Positions 1 to 31,196 of a DNA stretch of 31,196 nucleotides are shown piece by piece. How positions within the stretch are numbered: position 1 is the stretch's first letter; each line of letters opens with the position of its first letter. A program made the translations under genes and the position numbers. This DNA comes from a virus. A model generated the notes under the pieces. It saw only the letters and a list, made by a program, of their open reading frames with translations, ran no database searches and had not been told where the DNA came from. The stretch spans positions 1 through 31,196 of IMG/VR virus record IMGVR_UViG_3300047409_000164, one strand, 5' to 3'.

Positions 1-137
1 GTCGCGCGGTCCCCCCATCCTTCGCCAGCCCCAGAGTACCCCAGCGGCATTGTGCTGTCGCTGTCGTCGCTGCCCGTCCGGTCTGCCCCAGACGTCCGGT
101 CGGTCCAAAGGACACCCACAAGCCCCGTCTCATGCTC

Positions 138-731
138 TCACCGCCGCCTTGTCTTCATCGCATGAGCGATGGCGAGCGGCAGGGTCCGGTTCATCTCCCT
201 TGCCATCGAGGCCGTGAAGTCCTCATAGAACGGCACGCGCTTCGGTATCTTGGTCGTCGGCTTCAGGGCGTACAGGAGCTTCAGTCTGCCCTTGCTGTCC
301 TTGGAGTACAGCATGCCGTTGCGCTTCACGGCGACCTTGAGGTTGCGTGGCCGAAGGCGTGACGGCACACCACGAGACGTGCGCTTGATGTTGCTGACCG
401 GCACGGCGAGGTTGCCACCGCCTTTGGGCGTTCGCGTGCCGCCCTTGGCCTGCATCTGCAAGTTACCGCGATTGAGTTTGTCGTATATCTCAACAGACAG
501 CATCGACTTGGTTGCTCTCGCTTCTTTGGTCGTCAGCGAGGCGGCGATGAAGGATGGGTTGCGTGCGGTGACGTGGGTTGGCCACGTTGTCTTGATCAAC
601 AGGTTGCGGGTGACGTCGGCTGATCTGTTCAGGGCCAGCGCGCATGCATACGGTATCTGGCTCTCCGCTGCCTCGTTGAGGCTGAGTGCCGCCTTGCTCA
701 ACTCCGCATAATCGAATTCGATCTTGAACAT
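138..731 (-). CDS. putative phage structural (minor tail/joining-like) protein
   Basis: A 197-aa protein. I chose the internal ATG at 731 over the longer frame because GGAG lies 7 bases before it and the upstream frame reads through a structured leader. The protein is basic, with a Gly/Lys-rich middle (GGTRTPKGGG region) and a C-terminus that ends in a run of arginines after an FYEDF segment. That overall look resembles small phage head-tail or minor tail proteins, but I do not recognise a named family, so the role is an inference. It is the last gene of the leftward block in this window. The 137 bases downstream show no gene. Confidence 0.5.
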   Translation of the reverse strand: MFKIEFDYAELSKAALSLNEAAESQIPYACALALNRSADVTRNLLIKTTWPTHVTARNPSFIAASLTTKEARATKSMLSVEIYDKLNRGNLQMQAKGGTRTPKGGGNLAVPVSNIKRTSRGVPSRLRPRNLKVAVKRNGMLYSKDSKGRLKLLYALKPTTKIPKRVPFYEDFTASMAREMNRTLPLAIAHAMKTRRR

Positions 732-751
732 GGGCCACTCCGAAAGGGTGT

Positions 752-828
752 GAGGCGCGTGCTGAACACCACGAGGGTTCGACCTATGACGAACCGCTGG
801 GAGCCTTGCGAGCCGTACCAGACGCCTC
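752..828 (-). other. structured leader ahead of the 138-731 gene
   Basis: The gap between two minus-strand genes contains an outer inverted repeat GAGGCG (752-757) with CGCCTC (823-828). An inner perfect 6-bp stem, GGTTCG (776-781) with CGAACC (790-795), has an 8-nt loop. The RNA would form a branched structure just upstream of the ribosome binding site at 731. No T-loop or anticodon arm is present, so it is not a tRNA. The role is unknown. Confidence 0.35.
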
Positions 829-837
829 TGGGTTATT

Positions 838-1074
838 TCACTGACCTCCAGCCCACTCATACAACAGGCGAGCGAAGTCCTCGCGCGTCTCCAGTCTGTT
901 CAGCTTGATGGCGGCGAGTTGTTCTCCGACATGCATCAGGTCGCCATAGCTCATCTGCAATACCGCGTTCGACACCTCGCGCCGGTTGTTGATATCGACC
1001 CACGCCGCGCCTTCGTCATGGGTGAAAACCGGGTTCGCACTCTTGGCCGTGATCGCCTTACTTCGCTTCGCCAT
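838..1074 (-). CDS. small hypothetical phage protein
   Basis: A 78-aa protein starting at the ATG at 1074 (MAKRSKAITAK). The longer frame runs back through a hairpin region and is not preferred. It has a basic N-terminus followed by a mixed helical region rich in Leu and Glu, with no Cys motif and no membrane segment. I do not recognise the family. It follows the two-hairpin leader at 1103-1197. Confidence 0.55.
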   Translation of the reverse strand: MAKRSKAITAKSANPVFTHDEGAAWVDINNRREVSNAVLQMSYGDLMHVGEQLAAIKLNRLETREDFARLLYEWAGGQ

Positions 1075-1102
1075 GTTAATAATCCCGCCTTGGTTTGAGG
1101 GA

Positions 1103-1197
1103 AGGGGCGACGACACCCGTTCCGTACCGCCGCCCCTCTCAATCGGCGCATCCTATCGCGGAGCAAGCCGCAACGCTGATAGGTGTCACGCCGATTG
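1103..1197 (-). ncRNA. two tandem, strongly structured hairpins between genes
   Basis: The first element is a nested rod. Outer arms CAATCGGCG (1140-1148) and CGCCGATTG (1189-1197) are perfect over 9 bp. Inside them CCTATC (1152-1157) pairs with GATAGG (1178-1183), and GCGG (1158-1161) pairs with CCGC (1168-1171) around a 6-nt loop. The second element has 7-bp arms, AGGGGCG (1103-1109) and CGCCCCT (1131-1137). Both lie in the leader of the 838-1074 gene, with no U-tract behind them. This fits a cis-acting RNA, a processing site or a structured small RNA better than a simple intrinsic terminator. Function is inferred only. Confidence 0.45.
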
Positions 1198-1205
1198 GAT
1201 GCCGA

Positions 1206-1415
1206 CTATTGCATCTGATCCGTTCGCCTGTCCATGAACATCAGCGGCAGCGACTGCACCCGCTCCAGCGTTCCAAGCACGGCCTGCATCCGCTGCATCT
1301 GATAATCGGCGAGCGACTGACGGAGCTTGCCGTTGGCGACCAGCCGGGCATAGACCCGTTCGCGCTGCGCCAATTCGCGCTTCACCTCGTCAATCTGTTC
1401 TCTGATGCTGATCAT
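1206..1415 (-). CDS. small coiled-coil protein
   Basis: A 69-aa protein, almost entirely charged helix (Glu, Arg, Gln) with Leu/Val spacing typical of a coiled coil. Its ATG at 1415 overlaps the stop of the upstream gene in an ATGA, so it is probably translationally coupled to it. I do not recognise the family. It is the third of three consecutive small coiled-coil genes, which may be related by duplication or may act together. Confidence 0.6.
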   Translation of the reverse strand: MISIREQIDEVKRELAQRERVYARLVANGKLRQSLADYQMQRMQAVLGTLERVQSLPLMFMDRRTDQMQ

Positions 1416-1693
1416 TCGTTCGGCTCCAGCACGGTGCGGGCAAGATCGAATGCATCGGGATGCCCTTCCAATATTTCACGCACCACCGCTTCCAGCGCCT
1501 CGATGCGGGCTTGCGCCTGCTCAACCTTTGCTGCCGCCTGCTTGAAAAGGTCCATGCGCTCGATGGCGATTGAGCGTAGGCGTTTAAGATCAACTTCCAT
1601 CGTGGCGATATACTCCACTTGCTCAAGCCCTCGCGTAACTGCCCGATCAAGCCTCGCTTGCAGCTTGTCGATATAGAATTGGTTGTCGGTCAT
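1412..1693 (-). CDS. small coiled-coil protein
   Basis: A 93-aa protein. I take the ATG at 1693 as the start because it is preceded by GGAGGGCAAGCA, a variant of the start box seen before other genes here, and overlaps the upstream stop in an ATGA. It is a long charged helix: residues about 8-75 carry regular hydrophobic spacing, including ARIEALEAVVREILEGHPD. The same RIEALE core occurs in the next gene upstream (1690-1884), which suggests the two are paralogues. Function is unknown. Confidence 0.65.
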   Translation of the reverse strand: MTDNQFYIDKLQARLDRAVTRGLEQVEYIATMEVDLKRLRSIAIERMDLFKQAAAKVEQAQARIEALEAVVREILEGHPDAFDLARTVLEPNE

Positions 1694-1884
1694 TGCTTGC
1701 CCTCCAGAAGTTCGCGGCAGATGCATTCGACGCCGTATGGGTCGGGCGTGCGCATGATTTCCCGCACTCCCTTTTCCAACTCCCTGATGCGGGCGACGTG
1801 CCTGTGACAGTCCTGTTCCAGCGCCTCGATGCGGGCTTCCAGCGTGCGCACGTTCGCGCCCTCGTGCCATCTTTCTTCGCTCAT
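1690..1884 (-). CDS. small coiled-coil protein, paralogue of its neighbour
   Basis: A 64-aa protein from the ATG at 1884, which has a G-rich Shine-Dalgarno region just upstream. A central coiled coil (RTLEARIEALEQDCHRH) is followed by RELEKGVREIMRTPDPYG. It ends with a short Cys pair (VECICRELLEG). The ARIEALE and VREI-x-x-x-PD elements are shared with the 1412-1693 product. Both ends overlap neighbours by an ATGA-type junction. No family recognised. Confidence 0.6.
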   Translation of the reverse strand: MSEERWHEGANVRTLEARIEALEQDCHRHVARIRELEKGVREIMRTPDPYGVECICRELLEGKQ

Positions 1885-2147
1885 AGCCGCCCCTTCGCCC
1901 CTCCCTTGCACGCCAATCTTGCGGAGCGTGGATCATCGACACGCCCTGCCGTGCTGATCGCAACAGTCAGGCCGCACTGATCGCACTCGATGGCATAATA
2001 GCCGATGCGCTTCGCCGGATAAGGCAGCGCGATTTGGCAGGAGCGTTCTGCACCGCGCGACATATCGAGGTCGATGCCGTTCGGATAGTCGGGGTTCGGT
2101 GGGTTCTTCGGCTCTGCGCCACCATCAACCCATTGGACCTTGTGCAT
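1881..2147 (-). CDS. small hypothetical protein with CxxC
   Basis: An 88-aa protein. The start is either the ATG at 2147 or an adjacent GTG at 2150; GGGGA lies 5-8 bases upstream and fits either. It contains an ECDQCG motif (about residues 54-59) in an otherwise beta-rich sequence (IALPYPAKRIGYYAIECDQCG), compatible with one metal-binding knuckle. It looks like a conserved phage/rhizobial small protein, but I cannot name a family. The start overlaps the upstream stop as TGATG. Confidence 0.6.
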   Translation of the reverse strand: MHKVQWVDGGAEPKNPPNPDYPNGIDLDMSRGAERSCQIALPYPAKRIGYYAIECDQCGLTVAISTAGRVDDPRSARLACKGGAKGRL

Positions 2148-2440
2148 CACCGTTTCCCCGTCAGCACTTCGGACACGCGCCCGCCGTTGCGCAGACCGAC
2201 CTTGATCCCGATATCGTGCATCGTCAGGCGACGATCTTTTGCCATCGCGTGGATTTGCTCCTGCATGTCGTTGGTGATTGTCACCTTACGCGCATTGGCT
2301 CTGCGCACCGGAGACTTCCGCACCATCATCTTGACCGCTTGCTTGGTCAGCGCGTCCGCCTCACGTTGCAGTGCGGTAGCCTCTGCCCGTTTCAACTGCG
2401 CTTCGGCGAGTAGCCGCCGCGCTCCTACGATATCACTCAT
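2147..2440 (-). CDS. putative helix-turn-helix DNA-binding protein
   Basis: A 97-aa protein. The start is set at the ATG at 2440 because it follows the recurrent start box GGAGCAAGCA. An in-frame ATG at 2452 is the alternative. The N-terminal half is an alanine-rich amphipathic helix. The C-terminal 40 residues (MAKDRRLTMHDIGIKVG, then NGGRVSEVLTGKR) look like a helix-turn-helix in which the GRVSEVL segment would be the recognition helix. It sits next to a divergent plus-strand gene and its promoter candidate, so it could regulate locally. That role is inference. Confidence 0.55.
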   Translation of the reverse strand: MSDIVGARRLLAEAQLKRAEATALQREADALTKQAVKMMVRKSPVRRANARKVTITNDMQEQIHAMAKDRRLTMHDIGIKVGLRNGGRVSEVLTGKR

Positions 2441-2475
2441 TGCTTGCTCCATTGCGTTGCCTTCCAGAATTGTGC

Positions 2476-2714: not shown

Positions 2715-2743
2715 GGCCGGTGGCGTAGGTCACGCCATCGGCC
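2715..2743. terminator. bidirectional terminator-like hairpin, 12-bp stem
   Basis: Arms GGCCGGTGGCGT (2715-2726) and ACGCCATCGGCC (2732-2743) pair over 12 bp with one G-T wobble and a 5-nt loop. It lies between the convergent ends of the 50-aa gene (stop at 2702) and the helicase gene (stop at 2730), overlapping the last helicase codons. There is no clean U-tract on either side, so it may need Rho or act as a barrier. Confidence 0.55.
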
Positions 2744-4244
2744 TTCCGTGATTTGCTTTCGATTTTGCCCATGCGATCTGCCGCGACTTGATCCAGCCCC
2801 TTGTGTCGTCGGAAATTCTACTCGCTGGCATCACGCCCGCAATCCGATTGTCAGGCCACACCTTCAGCCGCTCGCGGTACTGGTTCGCTGCCCAGCCCGC
2901 CTTGTACCCGCGCATTGCAGCATATGCTTTCAACTCCGCGAGGAACGCCGCCTTGTCGAGCATGTCCAGCTTGGACTGCGCAGGCTCTTTCGGCTTCGGC
3001 TTCAATTCACGAAGCTCTCCAGCGTCGGCCTTCACCTTGTTGATCACCTCTGCCTTGAACCCGCACGCTGGACAGAGCGACAGCTTGGGCGGCTTCATGT
3101 AGGCGCACTTCGGGCATTCCTTCGGCAGCGCGATGGCCTCGATCCTGTTTTCGTGCATCGGCGTCTTGCCATCGTGCAAGCCCACATAGCTGTCATCAAT
3201 ATCGGTGACGAAGCCCAGCCGCGTGTGGTTGTCGCTGTGATCGAGGATCAGACAGTCGTCCTTGCCGTCTGCCGTGCGCAGACCGCGACCGACGATCTGG
3301 ACGAACAGCATGTCCGACTTTGTTGGGCGGCACATGCTGATGCAGCGGACATCCCAGTCAATGCCGACCGTCAACGTGCCGACGTTGCACACCACCTTGA
3401 TGTGCCCGCTGTGGAAGTCGCGCTTGATATGTCTGCGCTCCGCATCCTTGGTGAACGCATCCTGATATCCGCACGCCACGCCCTTCGCTTGGAATTGCGC
3501 TTGCAGATGTTTCGCGTGCGCACGATCCACCGCGTAGCACAATGTCGGTCGATCTTCGCCCAGCGCGAGCCAAGTATCCACGGCGTCGGCGACCAGCTTG
3601 CTCTCGCTCATCTTCGCCGACAGTTCGCCTTCGTGGTAGTCGCCAGCGACCGTCTTGATGCCCGACAGATCAGGATGCGACGGCGCATAGACCTTGAACG
3701 GCGACAGCGTGCCCAGATCGATCATGCCTTGGATGGTGCCCGCCTTGTGGAAGTGGTCGTACCAAGAACCAAGACCGCGCGTCCAAGGCGTTGCGCTCAA
3801 GCCGATGAACGGGATGTTCGCCCACTCTGGCATCTTGTCGCCGCTCAACCAGCGCTCATAGAACTTAAACCACTTGTGGCACTCATCGATGATGACGAAG
3901 TCCGCCTTCGGCAGTATCGCGCGCTTCATCAGCGTTTGAATTGATGCGACTTGGATTGGTCGGCTCCAGTCGGTCATCGGGTGATCAGCTTGGATAGCGC
4001 CCACCTCGTAAATGCCTTGGCTGGCGAACATCTCGATGGTCTGATCCACCAGACCGATCTGGGGTACTGTGAACAACACTTTTTTGTTGCGCTGCCTTGC
4101 GCTCTCGACCAGCGCCGCCGACAGCACGGTTTTTCCGTAGCCGGTTGGTGCCTGCATGCAGATGCGGCGCTTCTTATCGGCGACCGCATCGCGCAGCGCC
4201 TCGATGGCGTCCTTCTGATCGTTCCGCAACTCTCTAACTGTCAT
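2730..4244 (-). CDS. superfamily 2 DEAD/DEAH-type helicase with C-terminal zinc motif
   Basis: A 504-aa ATP-dependent helicase of the type III restriction/SSL2-like superfamily 2, likely acting at the phage replication fork or in recombination. Visible motifs: Walker A APTGYGKT (32-39), Walker B variant DECH (120-123), SAT (150-152) and motif VI QIVGRGLR (316-323). A CxxC pair at 377-380 and another at 391-394 form a zinc knuckle after the helicase core, and the remaining 100 residues are basic. It follows the primase and a 43-aa gene in one tightly overlapping unit, so helicase and primase are probably co-produced. The start at 4244 lies inside the end of the 43-aa gene. Confidence 0.9.
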   Translation of the reverse strand: MTVRELRNDQKDAIEALRDAVADKKRRICMQAPTGYGKTVLSAALVESARQRNKKVLFTVPQIGLVDQTIEMFASQGIYEVGAIQADHPMTDWSRPIQVASIQTLMKRAILPKADFVIIDECHKWFKFYERWLSGDKMPEWANIPFIGLSATPWTRGLGSWYDHFHKAGTIQGMIDLGTLSPFKVYAPSHPDLSGIKTVAGDYHEGELSAKMSESKLVADAVDTWLALGEDRPTLCYAVDRAHAKHLQAQFQAKGVACGYQDAFTKDAERRHIKRDFHSGHIKVVCNVGTLTVGIDWDVRCISMCRPTKSDMLFVQIVGRGLRTADGKDDCLILDHSDNHTRLGFVTDIDDSYVGLHDGKTPMHENRIEAIALPKECPKCAYMKPPKLSLCPACGFKAEVINKVKADAGELRELKPKPKEPAQSKLDMLDKAAFLAELKAYAAMRGYKAGWAANQYRERLKVWPDNRIAGVMPASRISDDTRGWIKSRQIAWAKSKANHGRPMA

Positions 4245-4365
4245 AGCCCAGCACCCTTTTCATTTCGCGGACGACAGCGCGATAGGCTTTGATTTCCTCT
4301 TCCAGTCGCTCGATCTTTTTCTTCGCCTCGATCAACTCAAGTTTTATCGCATCTCGCTTGCTCAC
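4234..4365 (-). CDS. 43-aa coiled-coil protein between primase and helicase
   Basis: A GTG-started 43-aa protein. The GTG at 4365 overlaps the primase TGA as GTGA and is preceded by GAGGGGAAATT. The sequence is a single charged helix ([18 protein letters not shown]) with heptad spacing, ending in KRVLGYDS. The gene overlaps the helicase start by 11 bases. The tight coupling on both sides supports a real gene, perhaps a primase-helicase accessory. That role is speculative. Confidence 0.55.
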
Positions 4366-5294
4366 AATTTCCCCTCTCGCAATGGATCATTGAAATCGCC
4401 GTGCTTCGTCGGCGTCAGCACATCGATGCGCCTCGCTGTCCTGTCGCGATGCGCTTCGAAGACCAGCCGCTTGGCCAGTGCATAGGCCGCAGCCTGCCCC
4501 GTGTAGCTCGCATCGTTGTCGGCGAATATCGTGATCGATAGCACGCCGGTCGGCGGCGACCATTGCTCCAGCATCACGGACGACGTCGTCGCCCACACCG
4601 GCATGCCGAACATGAGTGACGCCGACAGCGCGGTCTCGATGCCCTCCGCAATTCCCATTTCAGGCGCGACAGGTCCAAGACGAATAGCGCCACCCTTCGG
4701 CAGATCGCCCGGCATGAACATGCGATTGGGCTGCACGTCCGCCTTGCGCCCGTCCTTCGTCAGATACGTCCGATGGATTTGCTTCGGTTTGCCGTCCGCG
4801 TCGCACATGCGGGCGATCATCGCCGGATGCGCAGTCGCTGTGGGGAAGTGCGGCAGATGCGTGCTGCGCAGAGCCGCGCTGCCAATCGTGATGCCGCGCG
4901 CCTTCAGGTACAGGTCAACCGGGTCGCCATCTGTCAGCGTGCTTGCCGCCATCCACATCCTGTTCAACTCTGCGCTGGATGTGCCCGCCTTCAGCTTGAT
5001 CACCTTCGCTGTCGCCTTCGGCAGATTGCCGATGATCTTGTCTACCTCGTCGGCGGCTTTCTTGAAGTCCCAACCGTGATACGTCTGGAGAAACTTGAAG
5101 CCCTTGCCGCTGCCGCACTGCGAACAGAAAAAATCCCCGTCGCCTTGCTTGTCATCGAACCGGAAGCGATCCGTGCCGCCGCAGAACGGACAGGGCTGAT
5201 GCTTGCCGTTGAGAAAGCCGGTGGGGACGCCCAGCGCCGGGAGGATTTCGCGCCAACGTCCATGCGCTGCGGTGATCGTGTTTTTCTCGATCAT
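4362..5294 (-). CDS. phage primase with N-terminal zinc ribbon and Toprim domain
   Basis: A 310-aa DNA primase that would make RNA primers for replication. The zinc-binding domain has CPFC (35-38) and CSQC (57-60). The Toprim core shows IAEGIETA (215-222) as the catalytic Glu motif and FADND (257-261) as the Asp motif. I start it at the ATG at 5294 (MIEKN), which overlaps the stop of the 48-aa gene in an ATGA. A 49-residue longer GTG start at 5441 is open but runs through that gene in another frame. It resembles the P4 alpha/Toprim primases without the helicase part, which is supplied separately by the 2730-4244 gene. Confidence 0.88.
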
Positions 5295-5437
5295 GAATTC
5301 CACCATCGTTGCAGCCGGATCATCGCGAACGCCGTTGCTCGCATCGCGCGGATCACCAGCACCAGAAGGATCACGCTGAAGGCGTAGAATAACAGCCAGA
5401 GCATTTTGAGCGTGCTTAGTGGTGATGGAATGCGCAT
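5291..5437 (-). CDS. 48-aa single-pass membrane protein
   Basis: The ATG at 5437 directly follows the TGA of the upstream gene, and the stop overlaps the primase ATG (TCATGA junction). After about 13 residues there is one clear membrane segment ([19 protein letters not shown]), followed by a basic tail. A GGGAG lies 9 bases upstream. The fit to both neighbours' boundaries is the main evidence, because the same DNA is also open in the primase frame. Function unknown; a small phage membrane protein in the replication unit. Confidence 0.5.
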
Positions 5438-5632
5438 TCACAGGTTCTCCCGCGCCACATCGAAGTTGATGCAGACGGCGGTCCCCGATGGATCATCGAG
5501 ATTGTCGGTGATCGCTGGCCACACCGTCACTGGCGGTCTGCCCCTGAAATACAGCGTGATCGTTCCGCTCGCCGTGCGCGCCATCGTGATCTGATCATCG
5601 TGGTACAGTTCGCCGGTTTTTAATTTCGCCAC
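5438..5632 (-). CDS. small hypothetical protein, first gene of primase unit
   Basis: A 64-aa protein starting at a GTG (5632) with a strong AGGAGAGAGG Shine-Dalgarno 1-5 bases upstream. It is beta-rich ([19 protein letters not shown]) with an acidic stretch. It shares a short LYF-x-G pattern with the 9202-9414 product, which may be a distant relative. It is the first gene after the large non-coding gap and so opens the primase-helicase transcript. Confidence 0.55.
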
Positions 5633-5931
5633 GCCTCTCTCCTATTACTCAGACTGTATTCTTTTCTAATTACCTCTTCTTGGTCCTGTGGTTGCCCGAA
5701 CTCCCCCTTACCCCCTCACTGACGCTCTGTGCGCCGGTCAGCCGTTCGCGATCCGGCGAGGTGCCGGTCGGTTCCGAACGAACGAGGGTGGGGGAATTCG
5801 GATCGCCCGCGCGGACGTCCCTAGACCAGCACAAGCACCGTTTTTGCCACGCGATGCAATCTGGTCAGGGCAAAGCCCTCACTCCTGCAACGTGCGATCT
5901 GGAACCAATTGTATGCGGTGGGGCTTGATGA

Positions 5932-5961
5932 TAAACGCAAGTCACGGTAGATTTGCGTTTA
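5932..5961. promoter_or_regulatory. operator-like inverted repeat TAAACGCAA/TTGCGTTTA
   Basis: TAAACGCAA (5932-5940) and TTGCGTTTA (5953-5961) are a perfect 9-bp inverted repeat with a 12-nt spacer. The centre-to-centre distance is two helical turns, as expected for a dimeric repressor site. It could equally be a hairpin. The phage XRE or YdaS-like proteins are candidate binders. Confidence 0.4.
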
Positions 5962-5995
5962 AGAGCGAGCCTTGCACTAACAAGGTTTTCGATCA

Positions 5996-6030
5996 GAAGG
6001 GCGGATGGCTTTGACGAGCCGCCGCCCTTC
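5996..6030 (+). terminator. intrinsic terminator-like hairpin
   Basis: Arms GAAGGGCGG (5996-6004) and CCGCCCTTC (6022-6030) form 9 bp, with an inner stem GGCT (6007-6010)/AGCC (6017-6020). It is followed by GCCTTTTC on the plus strand. The orientation would end rightward transcription, yet no plus-strand gene lies upstream within the gap. It may end a small RNA or guard the region. Confidence 0.45.
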
Positions 6031-6177
6031 GCCTTTTCAAACTGCGCTGCGTCGGCCCGATTTGGCAAGACGGTCTGTCATCACTTTTTTCGAAATATTT
6101 CCCTTGCACCGCTAATAGCCGTGTCGCCCGTGCTGTACCCACCAGATGTTGATTTCGGTGCCTGTGAATAGCGGGGA

Positions 6178-6708
6178 TCACCGCCGTGCGCGGAACAGCG
6201 GCGTCTGCCGCACCGCAACATCAGGACGCAGATAGCCGCACTGGTAACTCCAGAGCGCGCAGGCGTCGGCCTCGTCTGTCGTCTCGACCATCCAGCCCAG
6301 ATCGCGGCATTGCTGCACCGTCTGCGGCTTGGCGATGCTGGATTTCATGTTGCTGCCAATGAAGTGCGCACGGACTTGCGCCACCGTGGCTTCGCGAAGC
6401 TCCACGCGATTGTAGCACCACTCTTCCAGATGCTCCGCGAGACCCATCAGCACCTTGATGGTGTTGATGTTGGTTTTGCCGTGCATCACCATCGGCAGCG
6501 CAGGACTTTCGAAGACGACCAGATTGGTCTTGTGCGCAGACAGGAACAGATCGAGCCACAATCGAAATGCGCGATAAGCCGCAGCGCGCGGCTCACCAGT
6601 CTTGACGAAGCGAAGATGTCCGAAGGTCGGCACAGTGCCGGGTTTGCCAAACGCCCATCCCGTCACGCTCGCAAGATCGAGCGCCAGCACGCTGCCCGTA
6701 AAACTCAT
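6178..6708 (-). CDS. RuvC-like Holliday junction resolvase
   Basis: A 176-aa nuclease of the RNase H-like fold, expected to cut branched DNA during recombination or before packaging. The N-terminal strand VLALDLASVTGWAFG carries the first Asp (D11). E67 lies in VVFESPA, and the C-terminal acidic pair is in TDEADACAL (D145, D148). This spacing matches phage and bacterial RuvC-type enzymes. The start at 6708 has GGAT upstream and follows directly on the stop of a tiny membrane ORF (TGA then ATG). It sits with helicase, primase and recombination genes, consistent with DNA processing. Confidence 0.85.
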   Translation of the reverse strand: MSFTGSVLALDLASVTGWAFGKPGTVPTFGHLRFVKTGEPRAAAYRAFRLWLDLFLSAHKTNLVVFESPALPMVMHGKTNINTIKVLMGLAEHLEEWCYNRVELREATVAQVRAHFIGSNMKSSIAKPQTVQQCRDLGWMVETTDEADACALWSYQCGYLRPDVAVRQTPLFRARR

Positions 6709-9872: not shown

Positions 9873-10328
9873 CTACGCCGCGCCCAACTGGTGGACGTTG
9901 CTTTCGTCCGCAGGCGGGATCACGTCTTCCAAGTCGGCCTGCGCTTCCTTCTTCGCCGCCTTCGTCTTCGGCTCTTTCGGCAGCGGCGGCAGATCGGAGA
10001 ACAGTGCAAGCTGCGCCTTGTCGCCGTGCGCCTTGACGACCTTGTGGAGTATCTTGCGGTTCTCCGCTTCCAGTTCAGTGATCGCGCCGGTCAGCTTCGC
10101 CTGAAGCTGTTCGATCTTGACTTGGAGCTTCATCACCTTCTGCGGAATACCCTGCGCTGCGGCACGCTCATACACCGCCGCGATCAATTCGCGCTGGCGG
10201 CGCGCGGCATTCATGTACTTGCCACGCGCGCTGTCGATCTGTTCGTTTGCTTCGCCGACATCCTTGAGGATGCCGTTGATGAACTTCGGAGTTACTTCCA
10301 CGTCCTGTTGTTTTGCTGCTTTAGCCAT
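9873..10328 (-). CDS. GapR-like (DUF2312-type) coiled-coil protein
   Basis: A 151-aa protein. The central part (28-105) matches the layout of GapR, the alphaproteobacterial chromosome-structuring protein that binds overtwisted AT-rich DNA: a helical hairpin with VYERAAAQG at 52-60, close to GapR's VYAEAKGNG, then K-V-x-K and a long second helix ending KAHGD. The C-terminus is a Lys/Ala-rich acidic tail absent from host GapR (about 90 aa). It overlaps the gcrA-like gene by 8 bases, so the two are co-translated. GAGGAAG precedes the start. The family call is by eye and needs a profile search. Expected role: binding phage or host DNA topology. Confidence 0.55.
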   Translation of the reverse strand: MAKAAKQQDVEVTPKFINGILKDVGEANEQIDSARGKYMNAARRQRELIAAVYERAAAQGIPQKVMKLQVKIEQLQAKLTGAITELEAENRKILHKVVKAHGDKAQLALFSDLPPLPKEPKTKAAKKEAQADLEDVIPPADESNVHQLGAA

Positions 10329-10785
10329 GTGACTTCCTCAATGCTGCCGGTTGGAGGTTGTTGTACAGGCGATGATGCGTCGGGCAGTACGGCGAGCCTG
10401 TAGCGGAGCGAGTGCGACCGCAGCACATGCGCAGTCCATCCGTGCCGATCTTGTCGAGGATGGCCTTGCAGCCAGCTTCGGTGTTGTCGAGATAGTTGAC
10501 GCCGTCCGCTGGCTCTTCGCGGACGACAATTTCGGTTTCGAAATCCTGTTGCTTGCTCGCGATGTTCATAGGCGTGCCCCTTGCCCTTGGCCGTGGTGAA
10601 ATCTTCCGTACTGGTTCGGTCCTGACGAACGACTGGTCTTTCGCCAGCCGCCACTTGCGTCCGCTGATCGCGTTGCGCGAGAAAGTGTAACCGGCTGTCG
10701 CCATGTCGCGAGCCACCGTCGTCAGAGTGCCGCCAGCTTCCCACAGTTTTCGGAGCATCGCATCGGCTTCGTCTGTCCAGTCCAT
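10321..10785 (-). CDS. gcrA: GcrA-like cell-cycle regulator
   Basis: A 154-aa protein related to GcrA, which in alphaproteobacteria binds sigma70 RNA polymerase and activates promoters carrying CcrM-methylated GANTC. The N-terminus MDWTDEADAMLRKLWEAGG fits the family's WT-x-E start, and the DNA-binding helix-turn-helix follows (residues 10-48, SRNAISGRKWRLA). The C-terminus has the family's CCGRTR...SPYCPTHH cluster (121-138). The middle is acidic linker. Length is close to host GcrA (about 170 aa). GAGGCGG lies just before the ATG at 10785. It probably redirects host transcription or the cell cycle. The surrounding genome has no GANTC. Confidence 0.82.
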   Translation of the reverse strand: MDWTDEADAMLRKLWEAGGTLTTVARDMATAGYTFSRNAISGRKWRLAKDQSFVRTEPVRKISPRPRARGTPMNIASKQQDFETEIVVREEPADGVNYLDNTEAGCKAILDKIGTDGLRMCCGRTRSATGSPYCPTHHRLYNNLQPAALRKSHG

Positions 10786-12478: not shown

Positions 12479-13420
12479 ATGAACGTCACGAAATGGAACG
12501 GCAAGCCCATCACGAAGCCGGGCTGGTACTCAGGCATCCCCATCGAGCGCTACCACTCCAAGGGCATGTGCGATGGCCCGGCAGTGTCGTCATCCGATCT
12601 GCGGATGTGCTGGAGCAAGTCGCCTGCGCATATGTACGCGCGCTGGGCAGAGAACCCTGAACGCGAAGAGCGTGAGCCGTCGCGCAACATGATCTTGGGA
12701 TCAGCGGCGCATCATCTGTTCCTTGGTGAAGACGGCTTCAATCTGAAATTCATTCAACAGAAGCTGACCTATCGCGACAAGGTCACGGCGGAAGAGAAGC
12801 CGTGGAATAACAACGCCGCCGTTTGCAAGGCGTGGAACGATGCGCAGACGAAGCTGGGATTGACCATCGTCAAGCCGGAAGAATTCAAAGCCATCGTGAA
12901 GATGGCAGAGAGCCTTGCGGTCGATCCGATGGTGATGAACGGCATCCTGAATGGTCGCGTGGAATGTTCTGGATTTTTCAAGGACGTGCCGACCGGCCTG
13001 TGGGTCAAGGTCAGGCCCGACGTGATCCCGATTGGCAGCGGCGACTATGTGGACCTGAAGACCGCTGCCGACGTGACGACCGTGGCGCTGCAATCATCGA
13101 TCAGATCATACGGCTACCACATGCAAGGCGCGCTGGTGATGGACGCTGCGGCGGTGCTGTCTCCAGAAGTGGAGAAGAAACAATTCGTGTTGCTCTTCAT
13201 CGAGACAGCCAATCCATACTGCGCTCGCGCCGTGCCGCTGGAAGAAAAAGACCTCGTGCGCGGCCTCGATCAGAACGCGGCGATGATGAAGTGGGTCGCG
13301 GAGTGCATCGAGACGAAGCGCTGGCCGGGACCGGGCGGCGAAGACGAAGGCCGTCCGCTTGGACTTGGCAACGATGAGCGCGCCCGCATTGATGAACGCC
13401 TGAAGAGGGGAGGACGGTGA
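12479..13420 (+). CDS. RecE/PDDEXK-type exonuclease
   Basis: A 313-aa protein of the PD-(D/E)XK superfamily, like RecE/exodeoxyribonuclease VIII and phage exonucleases paired with RecT. Catalytic pattern: H79 in SAAHHLF after the WAENP region, E162 (VECSG), D181 (VRPDVI), then D192-L-K194 (YVDLKTAAD), followed by the helix with Q and Y (SYGYHMQGAL). It would resect dsDNA ends to give 3' strands for the RecT annealase encoded two genes downstream. The C-terminus is basic. The next start overlaps its stop (GTGATG). Confidence 0.88.
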   Translation: MNVTKWNGKPITKPGWYSGIPIERYHSKGMCDGPAVSSSDLRMCWSKSPAHMYARWAENPEREEREPSRNMILGSAAHHLFLGEDGFNLKFIQQKLTYRDKVTAEEKPWNNNAAVCKAWNDAQTKLGLTIVKPEEFKAIVKMAESLAVDPMVMNGILNGRVECSGFFKDVPTGLWVKVRPDVIPIGSGDYVDLKTAADVTTVALQSSIRSYGYHMQGALVMDAAAVLSPEVEKKQFVLLFIETANPYCARAVPLEEKDLVRGLDQNAAMMKWVAECIETKRWPGPGGEDEGRPLGLGNDERARIDERLKRGGR

Positions 13421-13803
13421 TGGTCAGACCAAAGGTCACGGAATTCGATCAGTATGTCGGCGAGCGCATTCGCGAGGCGCGGCTGGACATCAAGATGTCG
13501 CAGAAAGATTTGGGCGAGTTGATCGGCGTGTCGTTCCAGCAAATCCAGAAGTATGAGACCGGAGCCAATCGCGTCAGTGGTGCGCGGTTTGAATTGCTGG
13601 TGACTGCACTGCGTCGGCCACTCACCTACTTTTTCCCGAACGGCACCGACGTGCGCTCAACCGCTGATCCAATCATGAGCCAATTCATTTCCAGCAAGCG
13701 CGGTCTGGAGATGGCGAAGAAATTCCCGCGTCTGGGCAATGCAGCGCAAGGCGTGGTGATGAAAGTGGTCGATGAATTCTTATCGAAGGAACATGCCCAA
13801 TGA
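13420..13803 (+). CDS. XRE-family helix-turn-helix regulator
   Basis: A 127-aa protein. ATG at 13420 overlaps the exonuclease stop, with GGGGAGG upstream; a GTG three bases earlier is equally possible. Residues 12-70 match rhizobial XRE regulators: YVGERIREARLDIKMSQKD, then LGVSFQQIQKYE-like helix-turn-helix (27-50). The rest is a helical dimerisation tail. It sits between recE-like and recT-like genes, an unusual place for a repressor, and so may be autoregulated with the recombination genes. Confidence 0.85.
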   Translation: MVRPKVTEFDQYVGERIREARLDIKMSQKDLGELIGVSFQQIQKYETGANRVSGARFELLVTALRRPLTYFFPNGTDVRSTADPIMSQFISSKRGLEMAKKFPRLGNAAQGVVMKVVDEFLSKEHAQ

Positions 13804-14828
13804 TTGACGTGACCGAAATCGAAAAGCGCGTGGACCGCGCGGTGACTGCCGCGATCCCCATGAGTGCCAACATGGGCGGCATCGAGCTTACCCAATACAT
13901 CCACATGATGGAGTTGGCGAAGACGATGGCGACGTGTCGCGCTGCGATCCCGGCGTGGCTGCGTGCATCAGTCGGCGACTGTCTTTCAATCTGGCAGCGC
14001 GCCGCGCGGTGGGGACTTGATCCGTATTTCGTCGCGGAGAAATCCTACATGATGACGAACCGGCAGACCGGCGAGACGCGCATCGCCTTTGAAAGCCAGT
14101 TGATCCACGCCGTCATCGAGAGCCTTGCACCGCTGAAGGGCAGACTGCGCCACGAGATAAAGGGCGAGGGTGACGAACGCTATTGCGAAGTGTGGGGCAC
14201 GTTCAAGGGCGAGGACGCGCCGCATCGGTTCAAGAGCGAGACGCTTGGCAAGCGCGTGAAGGACATCGGCAAGAGCGAGAAGGGATATTTTCGAGGCTCG
14301 CCGCTGTGGCTTCAGAAGCCCGAAGTCCAACTGTTCTATGATGCGTCACGCGATTGGGCGCGCATCAATTGCCCTGACGTTCTCGCTGGCGTCTACACGC
14401 GCGATGAACTGACCGACCACGAACCAGTGGACGTGACACCAGCACCCTCGACGCTGGCAGAGAGATTGCGTGCTGCGAAAGATCAGCACGCAGGAGACCG
14501 TGGCTTCGATGCCGACCACATCAAGAATGAGGTGGCGAAGAACGGAAGCACGGTGATCGACGGCAGCGCCAATTCCGACGCGGCCAATGTGGAGACGGGT
14601 AATGAGCCTGACAATGAGCGTGACATGGACCAACGGATCAGCGGCGGTCCAGATCGAGGCGGGGACGCTGACGACCAAGGCGGAAGTGAAGGCGCTGGCG
14701 ATGGAGCTTCGGAAGGTGGAGAAGCTGTTGCCGGATCGCCTGCGCCGCACGGCGAAGAAAGCGACCAAGTCGAAATCTTCCCGCCCGACCGCAAGCCCGA
14801 AGCGCAAAGCAAAAAGCGCAAGCGCTGA
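13800..14828 (+). CDS. recT: RecT-family single-strand annealing recombinase
   Basis: A 342-aa protein. The core (about 1-210) is RecT-like: a DCLSIWQRAARWGLDPY segment, VAEKSYMM, and the typical SPLWLQKPEVQLFYDASRDW block. It would anneal complementary strands produced by the upstream exonuclease. The tail from about 265 on is Gly/Asp/Glu-rich (QRISGGPDRGGDADDQGG) and lies over the embedded ORF 14602-14859. Its codon use there is worse (lower GC3) than in the embedded frame, so this tail is probably a non-conserved overprinted extension. Start ATGA overlap at 13800. Confidence 0.88.
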   Translation: MIDVTEIEKRVDRAVTAAIPMSANMGGIELTQYIHMMELAKTMATCRAAIPAWLRASVGDCLSIWQRAARWGLDPYFVAEKSYMMTNRQTGETRIAFESQLIHAVIESLAPLKGRLRHEIKGEGDERYCEVWGTFKGEDAPHRFKSETLGKRVKDIGKSEKGYFRGSPLWLQKPEVQLFYDASRDWARINCPDVLAGVYTRDELTDHEPVDVTPAPSTLAERLRAAKDQHAGDRGFDADHIKNEVAKNGSTVIDGSANSDAANVETGNEPDNERDMDQRISGGPDRGGDADDQGGSEGAGDGASEGGEAVAGSPAPHGEESDQVEIFPPDRKPEAQSKKRKR

Positions 14829-23377: not shown

Positions 23378-23381
23378 GACG

Positions 23382-25291: not shown

Positions 25292-26185
25292 TCATGGCGT
25301 TCCTGCGATCCAGATGTGACAGTGCGGATCGACGCCGCAGTGATGTTCACCGACCCTGAACCACTCATAATTTTCCGCAGGCATCGACAGCCCTTCGTAA
25401 TTGAAGATGATGACGGTGTGCGCGGGCTTCCAACGATTGAGCAAGCATTCCAGATCGTCGGCGAGGCCGATGCGCAGATGAGGATCAACGCCGGTCTGGC
25501 TCGCGCCGCAACGAAACCAAGTCAGCGAAGCCTGATCGACATAGACGGTCCAGTAATAGCGGTTCGCCAGCGGACCAAGCCCGTAGTTCGGCCAGCCTGA
25601 TAGCTCGCCTTCGATCACCGGCCCGTCGCCGCGCGCGTTCATGATGGGCTGTCCCCACTGATTGCGCATCAGCGGATCAGGCGCGCCTGCTGCACCGTAC
25701 TGGCGACAATCGCCGCAGCCATCCATCGCAACGAAGAACGGGCGATACTCCTTGATGGTGATGTGGTAGCCAAGCTCCTTGGCGACATCGATGAAGAACT
25801 GCCGCGACTGCGCACCCTCGATGGTCATGCGCCGCACCAGCGCCGCCTGCCGTTCTGCGACACTCTGCGGCGCGTCATAGCAAGGATCAGGCAGTCCCCA
25901 ATTGCGCTCCCAATCGGTCAGCAATCCCGACGTCTTGTCCTGTTGCGGCAGCGTGGCACGCGGATCGCTCTCGCGCTCCAGCAGCAATGACGCCAGCGCT
26001 TCGAAGTCTCCCCAGATGCGCGTCAGTCCCTTGATGACGCGGGTAAGCGCACTCTCCTCGCCGCGCGGCCACGCCTGTCCCTGCGGCACCAGCGCTTGCA
26101 GGGCAACCGCATAGTCCTCGCCGGTTCGCGTGACGTGGCGATCAGGCGGCGGCGGCTCTGCCCAGAAGTGCAGTGGATCAGCCAT
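25292..26185 (-). CDS. Mu gp48-like (YmfQ/DUF2313) tail protein
   Basis: A 297-aa baseplate-proximal tail protein. The N-terminus (EDYAVALQALVPQGQAWPRG), then DFEALASLLLERESDPRA and LLTDWERNWGLPDP, matches the DUF2313 family that follows baseplate J in Mu-like phages. The C-terminal half is Cys/His/Trp-rich (CGDCRQYG, EHHCGVDPHCH), an unusual repeated pattern that may bind metal. It overlaps gp47 by 8 bases. Confidence 0.85.
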   Translation of the reverse strand: MADPLHFWAEPPPPDRHVTRTGEDYAVALQALVPQGQAWPRGEESALTRVIKGLTRIWGDFEALASLLLERESDPRATLPQQDKTSGLLTDWERNWGLPDPCYDAPQSVAERQAALVRRMTIEGAQSRQFFIDVAKELGYHITIKEYRPFFVAMDGCGDCRQYGAAGAPDPLMRNQWGQPIMNARGDGPVIEGELSGWPNYGLGPLANRYYWTVYVDQASLTWFRCGASQTGVDPHLRIGLADDLECLLNRWKPAHTVIIFNYEGLSMPAENYEWFRVGEHHCGVDPHCHIWIAGTP

Positions 26186-27251
26186 AGAGAACGGTTCCTA
26201 AGCACGGCATGTAGCCGGGATCGGGCATCACTGTTGTTTCGTAATCGAGTTCGTGCGTCTCCTCGCCGACTGCCTGACTGATCGCCTCGTCCACCCATGA
26301 GCGATACCAAGTCTGTCCCGGCTTCGCGCGCCTGAACTCCAAATCCTTGATCGACTGTTCGATGCGTCCGCGCACGCTCGCATCATCGGTGGTGAGGTTG
26401 CGGATCGTGATGTCATAGAAGAACAGGATCGGTGCCATCACGAAGCAGTCGTACACCGTGACCGGGCGCATCTTGTCGATGTAGTCGCGCACTTCATCCA
26501 GATCGTCCTGTTGCGGCAGGCCGTGATTGTCTGGGTACAGATCGTCCATCAGGAAGCGGATGGTCATGGTGCCGGGTCCGATTTCCTGCGCAGCCCATGC
26601 GCGCGTCACACCGGGGACCGACAGCGCCCATGTGACGTAGTTCTCCTGCGTGCCGCCCATCGGCGGGTTCTGGATGCGCTGAAGGATGCGCTCGCGAAGC
26701 TGATCGTCGGTCTCCTGATTGACGCCGCCCGTCATGTCTCCGAACAGGATTGCGTTGTCCACACCAGCGACCGGCTGCACCAGCGCGATGCTCATGCCGT
26801 CAGGAAGATTGCCGACCGCTCCCGGCGTCAGCGCCACCGCCTCAGACGAGCCAAGCCCATCCGATCCGATGGTCGCCTGCGTCACGGTCTGATATTGCAC
26901 GCCGTTGGTGCCGGTCATCAGCGCACCGACCGGGATCACCACGCCAGCGGTCCCTTCCCACTGCACCGCGCCGTGGGCGTAGGTCGCGGCCTTGCGCCCC
27001 TTGGAGCCGTCAGCGTTGGACAACCAGATCACGCCGTGCCGATCCAGCCACTCCGTCTCTGCGGTGTCGGGCATAAGCTGCTTCGACAACCAGTCCACAT
27101 AGAGCATGGTGAGATGCGCCAGCCCGGCCATGCTGTCGCTCATGATGCGCAGCACGCTGTTGGGGATCATCGCCTTCGCGCCCAACTGCGACAGCACATA
27201 ATCGCGCGTCAGGCGGCGCGTCTCTTTCAGCGTCGGCGTGATCCAAGGCAT
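26178..27251 (-). CDS. baseplate J-like protein (Mu gp47)
   Basis: A 357-aa baseplate wedge component. The N-terminal SVLRIMSDSMAGLAHLTML and WLDRHGVIWLSNADGSK blocks and the later QETDDQLRERILQRIQNPP and GTQENYVTWALSVPGVTRAW are the family signature. It joins the central hub to the sheath side during tail assembly. Adjacent genes are gp46- and gp48-like, as in Mu. Confidence 0.92.
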   Translation of the reverse strand: MPWITPTLKETRRLTRDYVLSQLGAKAMIPNSVLRIMSDSMAGLAHLTMLYVDWLSKQLMPDTAETEWLDRHGVIWLSNADGSKGRKAATYAHGAVQWEGTAGVVIPVGALMTGTNGVQYQTVTQATIGSDGLGSSEAVALTPGAVGNLPDGMSIALVQPVAGVDNAILFGDMTGGVNQETDDQLRERILQRIQNPPMGGTQENYVTWALSVPGVTRAWAAQEIGPGTMTIRFLMDDLYPDNHGLPQQDDLDEVRDYIDKMRPVTVYDCFVMAPILFFYDITIRNLTTDDASVRGRIEQSIKDLEFRRAKPGQTWYRSWVDEAISQAVGEETHELDYETTVMPDPGYMPCLGTVLYG

Positions 27252-27757: not shown

Positions 27758-28758
27758 CGGCTTGCCTCCAGTTCCTCGATGCGCGCTTCCAACTCTGCGA
27801 TGCGCGCCTCAAGCGGACGCATGTCCAGCGACGTCGGCGGTCCCGGCTTCGGAGCCTTGACCAGCACCGCGCCTGCACCGCTGGTCTCCGTGGTCATGCC
27901 CTTGCCGCCGTTGACGCCGTAGACCGGATGATCCGCACCCTCGCTGCCCAGATGGATTTCACCGATGAAGACCCACTTGCCGCCCTCGTAATAACCGACG
28001 ACCTTGCCGCCGCTGTTGAACTCGATGCGCTTCTTGGAAATCTTCATCTCATTGTTGACGCTGTCGCCTTCGTGCTTGTAGTCCTCGTGGTTGGGCGCGC
28101 TGGCCTTCTCCGCGCGTTCGTCCGGTGACGCGCGCTCGTAATCCCATCCAGCATCGATCCACGTCTGAATGTTCTTCTCCGGTGTGCCGCCCTTCTCGCG
28201 GTCTTGCTTTTTCTTTTCGACGTGACGCACCGAAACGAAGCGCTCCTTTTTCTCGCTCTTGCCGGTCTCGCGGCCTTCAGCATCGCGCAGCATCTTGCCG
28301 CCCGGCGCTTGTCCCTCGCCGTCGTCGTCCAGCGACATGATGAAGGTCGCGGCGTTGCGGATCAGCGTGCCCTGTCCCTGATGGTCGTACTGGAAACTTT
28401 CGCCGGGCTTCATGCCCATCGGGCGGTGCCTGCGATCATCGACACCGATCACCACGGGATGATTGCGCTGCCCGCCAAGAAAGACCGCGATGCCCTCCGC
28501 AGCCTTGCCCTTGATGTTGGCCATGTCGCCGCCACCACCACCGCCGCCACCACCGCCGCCCTTGTCGTCGTCGCGCGGCATCGGCACCATCGACATGCCG
28601 AAGTTCTGCATCCGCTCAACGATCTTGCGGCCTTCCTTCGCCATCCCGTCGAACGACATTTCCTGCATCATCGGATTGTCGTTGCCCTTGTTCAGCGTCA
28701 GCCGAACAATCTGATGCATCGCCCGCCCCGACATCTCGCTTAGACTGTTCCGGTTCAT
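27754..28758 (-). CDS. Mu gp45-like baseplate spike
   Basis: A 334-aa membrane-piercing spike. I start it at the ATG at 28758, in an ATGA overlap with gp44; the longer frame is a shadow of gp44. An N-terminal OB-like region with GRAMHQIVRLTLN is split by eleven consecutive glycines (67-77), followed by GIAVFLGGQRNHPVVIGV and the family's GESFQYDHQGQGTLIR block. The middle is charged (RFVSVRHVEKKKQDREKGG) and the C-terminus ends in a coiled coil (ARIAELEARIEELEASR). It is expected to trimerise. Confidence 0.85.
   Translation of the reverse strand: MNRNSLSEMSGRAMHQIVRLTLNKGNDNPMMQEMSFDGMAKEGRKIVERMQNFGMSMVPMPRDDDKGGGGGGGGGGGDMANIKGKAAEGIAVFLGGQRNHPVVIGVDDRRHRPMGMKPGESFQYDHQGQGTLIRNAATFIMSLDDDGEGQAPGGKMLRDAEGRETGKSEKKERFVSVRHVEKKKQDREKGGTPEKNIQTWIDAGWDYERASPDERAEKASAPNHEDYKHEGDSVNNEMKISKKRIEFNSGGKVVGYYEGGKWVFIGEIHLGSEGADHPVYGVNGGKGMTTETSGAGAVLVKAPKPGPPTSLDMRPLEARIAELEARIEELEASR
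28528..28560 (-). repeat. GGN-rich tract coding for eleven glycines
   Basis: Eleven consecutive Gly codons (GGC and GGT mixed) lie in the spike gene. The tract reads as GCC and ACC triplets on the plus strand. Length change by slippage in threes would keep the frame and alter only the linker. Confidence 0.7.
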
Positions 28759-30038
28759 CGACCTCTCCTGTTCGATGGCGGCGTTGCCGGTGGCGTTGTC
28801 GCAGCCGCCTTGTCCGCCTCTGCTTTCGCCTTCGCCTCTGCAATCTTCTTTGCGCGGAATGCCAGCGCATCGCTGCGATAGTTGAACATGCCGTTCATGT
28901 GGATCGGCATCACCATCTTCAGCGTCGTTGTGGTTCCGCCGCCGTCCGACTGTTCGTAGGTGCAGCCCGCGCAGCCCATCACCTCGTCGTAAAGGATCAG
29001 CGACGGTGACGTGATCGCGTAGTATTCGCCAGCGCGCCATATCTGGTCGGACACGTTGGCGTCCTTGAACCAGCCCTGCACGGTCACTTGCGCTTCGATG
29101 TAGCTGCCTTCGGTGAAAACCTTTTCCATCTGCGCGCGGCGCTGGATGCCGTGCATCTTGTCGGCAACGTCGGCCACGATGACCAGATGGCGATTGCGCG
29201 AGGACGAACCACTCTCCTCCGCGACTTGCTTGTTCTCGCTCTCGCCGTTGGCGGCGTTGCTGCCCTTGTTCTGACCGACAGCGAAAATCTTTTTGTAGAC
29301 CATCGGATCACGCGCGACGGCATTGGCGCGCAGGATGTTGATGCCCTCGACCAACCACCCGCGTGTCGTCGCCGGATGCTCACCGATCAGCAACAGCCCA
29401 CCGTTCGCCTCTGAGCCAATCAGGATGTCGCGATGCTTGGCGTAGCGTTCGATGGCTTGGATCGGCGTCTCGCCCGGCTGGATTTGAATGTTCTCAAACG
29501 GCGTGCCGTCCACAGCACCGCGCTCGTGTATCTGGATGCCAAGGTGCATCGAGATGTCCTTGGCGAGTTGCGTGACCGACTTGCCGTCATGGCCGTCCAG
29601 CTTGTCGAGGGGCACCGACGAATTGACCAGATCGGACGTGTCGCCGCAGCCGATCAACCGGACGCCGTGCTGACCCTTGTCGTAACCGACATGGCGCTCC
29701 GTGATGTAGCCGAATACGGCAGGCGCGCCGCCAAGATAGACGCGCACAACATCGCCGGGCACGAACTGCGAACCGCTGACGCTCAGAGGCACCTCGACCT
29801 CTTCGCTGCATTCAAACTGGAATGTTGGGAATGCCTCGGTCCATTTCTGTTCGACGCGCACCGTGGTCCAGTTCGCGAAATACTGACCGCGCACTTCAAG
29901 GATCGCCAGTTCCTTTGAGACAGGAAGGCGCTCATAGACCGGCTCGCCGTTCTCCTCTCTCGGTGTCGCGGGCTTGTTGATCTGAACGCGCGGCGCTTCG
30001 ATCGTGATTTCGGGAAGCTCGATCACATCATCTGGCAT
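28755..30038 (-). CDS. Mu gp44-like tail hub protein
   Basis: A 427-aa baseplate hub (late control D family). Blocks LAILEVRGQYFANWTTVRV, VPGDVVRVYLGGAPAVFGYI, VRLIGCGDTSDLVNSSV and LLLIGEHPATTRGW fit the gp44/gpD hub fold. The C-terminus has a CAGC motif and an Ala/Lys-rich tail. It forms the ring from which the spike projects. Overlaps gp45 by ATGA. Confidence 0.9.
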   Translation of the reverse strand: MPDDVIELPEITIEAPRVQINKPATPREENGEPVYERLPVSKELAILEVRGQYFANWTTVRVEQKWTEAFPTFQFECSEEVEVPLSVSGSQFVPGDVVRVYLGGAPAVFGYITERHVGYDKGQHGVRLIGCGDTSDLVNSSVPLDKLDGHDGKSVTQLAKDISMHLGIQIHERGAVDGTPFENIQIQPGETPIQAIERYAKHRDILIGSEANGGLLLIGEHPATTRGWLVEGINILRANAVARDPMVYKKIFAVGQNKGSNAANGESENKQVAEESGSSSRNRHLVIVADVADKMHGIQRRAQMEKVFTEGSYIEAQVTVQGWFKDANVSDQIWRAGEYYAITSPSLILYDEVMGCAGCTYEQSDGGGTTTTLKMVMPIHMNGMFNYRSDALAFRAKKIAEAKAKAEADKAAATTPPATPPSNRRGR

Positions 30039-30040
30039 TG

Positions 30041-30709
30041 CTACACCGCCAACATCTTGCCCTCACGGGGCATGAAGGCCGGATGCACCACATGATTTTC
30101 GCTGATCAGTTCAGCGTGGCGGCGCGGGTCGGCATAGGCGCGCTGTGCCATGCGCAGCGACGGCATCGTTACCTGATAGGTGTAACTGATGACGCGCGGA
30201 AGCTGTCGCCCGCGATCCGCAAGATGCGCCGTCACCGAACCGTGCAGATTGATAATCGCCCTGTAGGTCGCTGCATTCAGATCGTCGGCGGCAACCTCTG
30301 CCGTTTCACTGAACGCGGCGTTCATGGACGTTGCGATCTGATCGACCTCCTCGCGCGAGCGGAACTGCATGTAGGCGATGATGCGCGCTTCCATCGCCAG
30401 CGTGAGCCGAACGATTGCAAGCGTTGTCTCCACTGCGGGAAGGCTCACGGGCGCTTCCTTCAGCGCCGCCTTGCGCACGCGGTCCATCGTCACCAGCGTG
30501 GCCGAACAATGCCGCGCCAGATCAACGCAGACGTTGAAGGCAAAGCAGAACGTCGGAAGATCGGTCATGTTGCGATCAGCGATCATCATGCCGACCGCTC
30601 TGCGCAGTGCGGTGCCGACCGTGCCTGTTGGCTTGACCGCAGCCGACAGCACCACCGGCCCGATGCGCTGGACGATCCCCAAGACTTCGTTGGCTTCGTC
30701 GCCGGTCAT
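30041..30709 (-). CDS. C-terminal half of gp43-like DNA circularisation protein, as a separate ORF
   Basis: A 222-aa protein whose end (TMPSLRMAQRAYADPRRHAE, then NHVVHPAFMP) corresponds to the C-terminus of Mu gp43/gpN-like proteins, with Asn-His-Pro spacing. The N-terminal part is helical. It starts in an ATGA overlap with the next ORF, which carries the N-terminal domain, so the usual single protein is made from two ORFs. It is a tail-completion or baseplate protein in spite of the historical name. Confidence 0.7.
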   Translation of the reverse strand: MTGDEANEVLGIVQRIGPVVLSAAVKPTGTVGTALRRAVGMMIADRNMTDLPTFCFAFNVCVDLARHCSATLVTMDRVRKAALKEAPVSLPAVETTLAIVRLTLAMEARIIAYMQFRSREEVDQIATSMNAAFSETAEVAADDLNAATYRAIINLHGSVTAHLADRGRQLPRVISYTYQVTMPSLRMAQRAYADPRRHAELISENHVVHPAFMPREGKMLAV

Positions 30710-31196
30710 GAGATGATCCCCACGCCAAGGTTCGACTGAAACGCAAAGTTGCCATGCCCAAGGTTCTGCTTGATCGCGGAGTTGAGATTGGCGGCGCGGT
30801 CCCCGGCGTCGGCGCTTCTGTGGACCAGCGCGTAGCCCAGCATTCGTTCCACGCCCTTGTCCGTCAGATGTCCCGGTGGACCGATCAATTGATCCTCAAG
30901 CGCGAAGGCCTTGTCCTCGATCTGGCCCGAAGTTGAAATCTGTTGGCGATACTGCGGGTCGCCGTACTCGATGAAGTCCATCTCGACCGAACAGAAGCCG
31001 CCCTTCTCGCGGCTCTCGGTGACGGTGTAGGCCATCACCATTACCTTGATGTCTTCCATCATGTACGGCAGCGGCAATCGCAGTTGACCGGGACCATCTT
31101 TCTCCAGCGCGTCGATCAATCTGTTCTTCTGATCCCAATACTTCGGCCCGATCAGATAAGCCTGCACGAGAAACCGCTTTGCCTTGCGGCCCATGT
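30706..31196 (-). CDS. N-terminal domain of gp43-like DNA circularisation protein (partial, runs off the window)
   Basis: At least 162 codons; the true start lies beyond the right edge, because the last visible codons read on without a stop and the family has about 30 residues more at the front. The LGxxYWDQKNRLIDALEKDG-like stretch and the ESREKGGFCSVEMDFIE block fit the DNA_circ_N domain. It is coupled by ATGA to the ORF with the C-terminal half. Confidence 0.75.
   Translation of the reverse strand, partial: MGRKAKRFLVQAYLIGPKYWDQKNRLIDALEKDGPGQLRLPLPYMMEDIKVMVMAYTVTESREKGGFCSVEMDFIEYGDPQYRQQISTSGQIEDKAFALEDQLIGPPGHLTDKGVERMLGYALVHRSADAGDRAANLNSAIKQNLGHGNFAFQSNLGVGIIS

Follow-up and report, generated by a model that had tools for sequence, protein, structure and literature searches.

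The window analysed here, meaning the whole stretch of 31,196 bp, is a 31-kb viral record and part of the genome of a contractile-tailed, baseplate-bearing soil phage. Its minus strand encodes a DNA helicase (positions 2730 to 4244; phrog_16, E = 9e-80), a DNA primase (4362 to 5441; phrog_510, E = 1e-79), a RuvC-like Holliday junction resolvase (6178 to 6708; phrog_159, E = 4e-12), a GcrA homologue (10321 to 10785), a phage lysozyme (17726 to 18292; PF00959, E = 3e-41) and a baseplate wedge protein (26178 to 27251; phrog_6, E = 3e-67). On the plus strand, there are genes for an exonuclease VIII-like protein (12479 to 13420; phrog_412, E = 2e-59), an HTH_3 transcriptional regulator (13417 to 13803; PF01381, E = 2e-11) and a RecT-like annealing protein (13800 to 14828; phrog_561, E = 3e-42). 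Tail-fibre and baseplate genes are also encoded. The first 25 kb of the window had no match in a nucleotide search against phage records, and an Rfam scan gave none.

The baseplate wedge protein was used as the query for relatives and for a phylogenetic tree, and related proteins were found in 80 viral loci. In named genomes, the top match, at 72% identity, came from a prophage in Bradyrhizobium sp. BRP22; six further Bradyrhizobium matches (50 to 52%) ranked next, ahead of Methylobacterium (48%). Because the best matches lie in Bradyrhizobium prophages, we infer from these prophage relatives that the host is Bradyrhizobium or its close kin. No PF00589 integrase was found in the records of the window's clade (clade A: the window, L002 to L009 and L066), which may be incomplete, and the phage is thus probably lytic. 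This agrees with the report that extreme site avoidance occurs mainly in non-temperate dsDNA phages, for orthodox type II sites (PMC6286503). Searches of the clade for N6/N4 (PF01555) and Dam-family (PF05869) methylases gave no match, and self-methylation by an enzyme of these families was rejected.

A program count of GAATC, GACTC, GAGTC and GATTC gave zero for each in the window, confirming the absence of GANTC reported in the first-pass annotation. By base composition, 112.6 sites would be expected; a maximal-order Markov model gave 78.7. To preserve the encoded proteins, synonymous codons were shuffled 300 times among 31 genes of the window (23.3 kb). Under this null, 51.6 ± 5.7 sites were expected within genes, with a minimum of 35 in any shuffle, and none was observed. 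TCNGA, GTNAC and CANTG, which have the same composition as GANTC, occurred at normal levels under the codon-preserving null, and GANTC was the only palindrome with four fixed bases at zero among those shown in the scan of the window. Asp/Glu-Ser pairs were retained, and the ratio of AGY to TCN serine codons in them was 33:0, compared with 135:231 elsewhere (p = 5e-14). On the basis of the zero count against both the Markov and the codon-preserving nulls and the exclusive use of AGY for serine after Asp or Glu, it is apparent that the absence of GANTC is real and selected, as the earlier reading had proposed, and that the sites were purged largely by synonymous substitution.

The absence is shared by the relatives of the window. 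GANTC was zero in each of the nine other clade-A loci. Among larger relatives, the observed and expected numbers were 1 and 139 in G001 (59.6 kb), which aligns with most of the window, 1 and 63 in G002 (24.2 kb), and 0 and 40 in G006. The sole sites of G001 and G002 (L087:8911 and L088:528) are both intergenic and located upstream of the primase gene, at differing positions. The homologous intergenic region of the window (5442 to 6177), which is well conserved with G002 and has no GANTC, could be an origin or a regulatory region. A dedicated, conserved GcrA promoter at these residual sites was rejected because the region is common to the genomes, whereas the position is not, and the window has no site there.

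A second group of relatives (L011 to L015, L020 to L026 and others) showed a different state, in which GAWTC was absent except for one site in one locus and GASTC was near expectation. In the whole record G011, the observed and expected numbers were 5 and 69 for GAWTC and 51 and 55 for GASTC. The corresponding values in related prophages were 0/20 and 7/20 (L126, Bradyrhizobium), 0/20 and 15/23 (L127, Bradyrhizobium), and 0/17 and 8/20 (L133, Methylobacterium). On the baseplate tree, whose loci include many near-copies and are not independent, a minimum of six changes was needed to explain the GAWTC-only label, compared with two for the full-zero label. An artefact of a single metagenome library is unlikely, since zeros were found in contigs of many metagenomes as well as in L338C and P106B, which are genomes of isolates. 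CcrM methylates all GANTC sites, whatever the central base, and the loss of GAWTC only is thus a poor fit to a CcrM- or GcrA-based cause. The GAWTC-only state fits better with the specificity of a PfeI/TfiI-type endonuclease; PfeI is specific to GAWTC (PMC6700114, PMC7556043).

The first-pass annotation had also stated that there was no general loss of such sequences, citing the frequent occurrence of GATC. GATC is indeed kept (276 sites), but the general statement did not hold. CCWGG was absent from the window, against 62 expected, while CCSGG was normal (53 observed, 49 expected). This CCWGG gap beside normal CCSGG, missing from that annotation, was likewise seen in G002 (0/51) and G006 (0/36). 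Ten palindromic hexamers were at zero across positions 1 to 31196, with 9 to 17 expected of each: ACCGGT, GCCGGC, CCGCGG, GGCGCC, AAGCTT, CTGCAG, CGGCCG, GTCGAC, GGATCC and ACGCGT. Hexamers that had almost disappeared from the window comprised 9 of the 21 testable palindromic ones and 6 of 1,069 non-palindromic ones (p = 2e-13). When four clade-A records were pooled (131 kb), 22 of 45 testable palindromic hexamers fell below 0.15 of expectation, compared with 5 of 1,777 non-palindromic hexamers (p = 7e-34). In this pool, the observed and expected numbers were 0/67 for ACCGGT, 0/44 for CCCGGG, 0/37 for GGATCC, 0/30 for GGGCCC, 2/104 for CGATCG, 4/86 for GCCGGC and 1/60 for CGGCCG. None of 46 palindromic hexamers fell below 0.15 of expectation in Bradyrhizobium DNA; there, GANTC and CCWGG stood at 0.68 and 0.91 of expectation in 200 kb of sampled stretches, so the loss is not shared by host DNA.

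Close relatives differed in the words that were purged, namely CACGAC, ATTTG, CCGAG and GGCC. CACGAC was missing from the window only (0/16) and ATTTG from G001 only (0/45), and CCGAG was strongly depleted only in the window (4/57) and G002 (4/36). GAGCCC was absent from the pooled clade-A records (0/41). The asymmetric words lost in individual lineages (CACGAC, ATTTG, CCGAG and GAGCCC) may be targets of type IIS or type III enzymes. The loss of many words, some of them lineage-specific, is what would be expected of phages that encounter numerous restriction systems.

The GcrA-like protein named in the earlier annotation is borne out. The 154-residue product has an N-terminal HTH and a C-terminal GcrA-type region, and matched PF07750 (E = 2.7e-13; 51 bits against a curated cut-off of 26.9) over profile positions 1 to 144 of 155 and the Caulobacter GcrA structure 7ye1 over positions 1 to 148 (E = 9e-6). 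In the alignment, its HTH carries a 4-residue insertion relative to Caulobacter GcrA, and its DNA specificity may differ from that of the latter. Bradyrhizobium genomes G028 to G030 have four to five GcrA-family matches each, some on contigs with related prophages. GcrA is also encoded by phiCbK-like phages (PMC3556154). The co-occurrence of GcrA and GANTC loss within clade A is uninformative because these records form one lineage. Across the GcrA-encoding phages examined, GANTC ranged from 0 to 1.09 of expectation, being near 1 in L096 to L102 and 0.61 in phiCbK, and the Rhizobium phages L338C and P106B, which lack GcrA, have no GANTC. Loss of the site does not track phage GcrA, and GcrA as its driver was rejected. 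Most likely, the phage gcrA gene serves host control independently and has nothing to do with the lost sites.

Other alphaproteobacterial phages were surveyed as a convenience sample of accessions, several of them sampled in part. The observed and expected numbers of GANTC were 0/201 and 0/145 in the whole genomes of L338C and P106B, 4/165 in RHph_X2_24, 9/81 in Lo5R7ANS and 1/62 in HTVC011P; GANTC was much less depleted in phiM12, phiN3, DSS3phi2, phiCbK and CcrColossus. CCWGG was absent from MD18 (0/108), DSS3phi2 (0/69) and 7-7-1 (0/47), and its purging was at least as common as that of GANTC in this sample. L338C and P106B, by contrast, both retain CCWGG. P106B (KF977490) also lacks CCCAG (0/42) and shows strong depletion of 11 asymmetric hexamers. 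The Bradyrhizobium phages PRSA-1, -2 and -26 were resistant to each of 16 restriction enzymes, HinfI among them, when these were applied one at a time, and absent sites or DNA modification were suspected by the authors (PMC5176342). Broad site loss as in the window would fit as an explanation for part of this list.

A CcrM-like methylase was strongly matched in 117 of 120 genomes of the host family, as a single copy in all but one, which had two matches on two small contigs. None of the 120 genomes showed a HinfI-type restriction-modification (R-M) pair whose methylase was an additional CcrM-like one. The proteins flanking a few host N6/N4 methylases other than CcrM showed no NCBIfam or PADLOC nuclease match, and in the inferred hosts these neighbours yielded no enzyme that would cut GANTC or GAWTC. 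Some GANTC methylases are not related to CcrM (PMC5537653), and an R-M pair containing one is possible.

We consider multi-site restriction avoidance by a Bradyrhizobium-group phage with a probably lytic lifestyle to be the best explanation, with a probability of about 0.85. Type II restriction endonucleases in the host population would have driven the purging: a genome free of a site could not be cut there, each new site would be selected against, and complete removal would confer full protection. Among the targets would be GANTC, or GAWTC and GASTC separately, probably cut by an enzyme resembling HinfI or PfeI/TfiI. The sites fall far below a composition- and codon-aware null, and their loss is concentrated in enzyme-like palindromes and lacking in host DNA, all of which supports the restriction avoidance that the first-pass annotation had offered as one of two causes. 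Its other suggestion, that the phage is kept invisible to the CcrM/GcrA machinery, found no such support. According to that suggestion, GANTC is avoided so that CcrM cannot methylate and host or phage GcrA cannot bind the phage DNA, which would prevent misregulated transcription or titration of GcrA, while phage GcrA steers host promoters. The clade does encode GcrA, the inferred hosts encode CcrM, and GANTC purging recurs in several unrelated phages whose hosts carry CcrM. However, GANTC is not the only site lost; CCWGG, a motif unconnected with CcrM, is purged to the same degree, as are many hexamers, and it is this joint loss of restriction-type sites that favours restriction avoidance. Together with the GAWTC-only states, the normal GANTC of L096 to L102, the moderate value of phiCbK and the empty genomes of the GcrA-negative L338C and P106B, these observations make evasion of CcrM and GcrA quite improbable.

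Against multi-site restriction avoidance stand the lack of a nuclease match beside the host methylases examined, the single CcrM-like methylase of nearly all host-family genomes, and the recurrence of GANTC purging in several alphaproteobacterial phage lineages, which might point to a cause peculiar to hosts with CcrM. One such possibility, which we regard as unlikely but deserving of some weight, is that lone GANTC- or GAWTC-cutting nucleases occur in Alphaproteobacteria. In place of a methylase of their own, the essential CcrM would shield the chromosome, in effect completing a distributed restriction system; phage DNA outrunning CcrM would be cut, and lytic phages would purge GANTC or only GAWTC. 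The near-universal and almost always single CcrM of the host family is consistent with this, as is the recurrent purging of GANTC or GAWTC in unrelated alphaproteobacterial phages, pelagiphages included (PMC9516812). On the other hand, no such nuclease was seen among the methylase neighbours described above, an ordinary R-M pair may be at work in view of the CcrM-unrelated GANTC methylases, and the purging of CCWGG, which is at least as widespread, needs no CcrM. Chance, base composition or mutational bias has a negligible probability. Low counts of CTAG and certain other words occur in many genomes of the window's group, but zero against 79 sites (Markov) and against 52 ± 6 (codon-preserving null) already refutes this account, and neither the normal words of the same composition nor the only mildly reduced GANTC of Bradyrhizobium DNA accords with it.

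Under multi-site restriction avoidance, a striking sequence gap would be explained without the cell cycle, and GANTC loss alone is no evidence for CcrM evasion. The split between GAWTC-only and full GANTC loss and the recurrent loss of CCWGG would constitute a fingerprint of the restriction enzymes that rhizobial phages may meet in soil. Two predictions follow: undescribed nucleases for GANTC or GAWTC should circulate in Rhizobiales that carry CcrM, and phage DNA should not be reliably protected by CcrM.

Site avoidance itself is known, and phages whose hosts carry CcrM have already been described as depleted in GANTC, namely the pelagiphages, together with NP1, a GANTC-poor prophage of Pelagibacter (PMC9516812). 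As far as the literature searched shows, with most subscription papers lying outside it and earlier single-phage reports (for example, on P106B) being possible, three features are new: the full lack of GANTC in phages of the Bradyrhizobium group and of Rhizobium, the state in which GAWTC alone is missing, and the combined disappearance of CCWGG and many hexamers. The window resembles the non-temperate dsDNA phages of PMC6286503 in having lost orthodox type II sites completely or almost completely, in the apparent absence of an integrase and in the milder loss in temperate relatives. It differs from them in that many sites are purged together and in the split between GAWTC-only and full GANTC loss among close relatives. 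The pelagiphages and NP1 share with it a clade-wise loss of GANTC in phages of CcrM-bearing Alphaproteobacteria, although these phages and their hosts are unrelated to those studied here. In two of these pelagiphages, GATC, CCWGG and other sites are purged as well, suggesting that their GANTC loss has the same general cause. The phiCbK-like Caulobacter phages encode GcrA as the window does, whereas phiCbK retains GANTC. Finally, phiLM21, a phage with its own GANTC methylase (PMC5537653), resembles the window in having a trait centred on the CcrM site, but phiLM21 modifies these sites, whereas the clade of the window lacks them.
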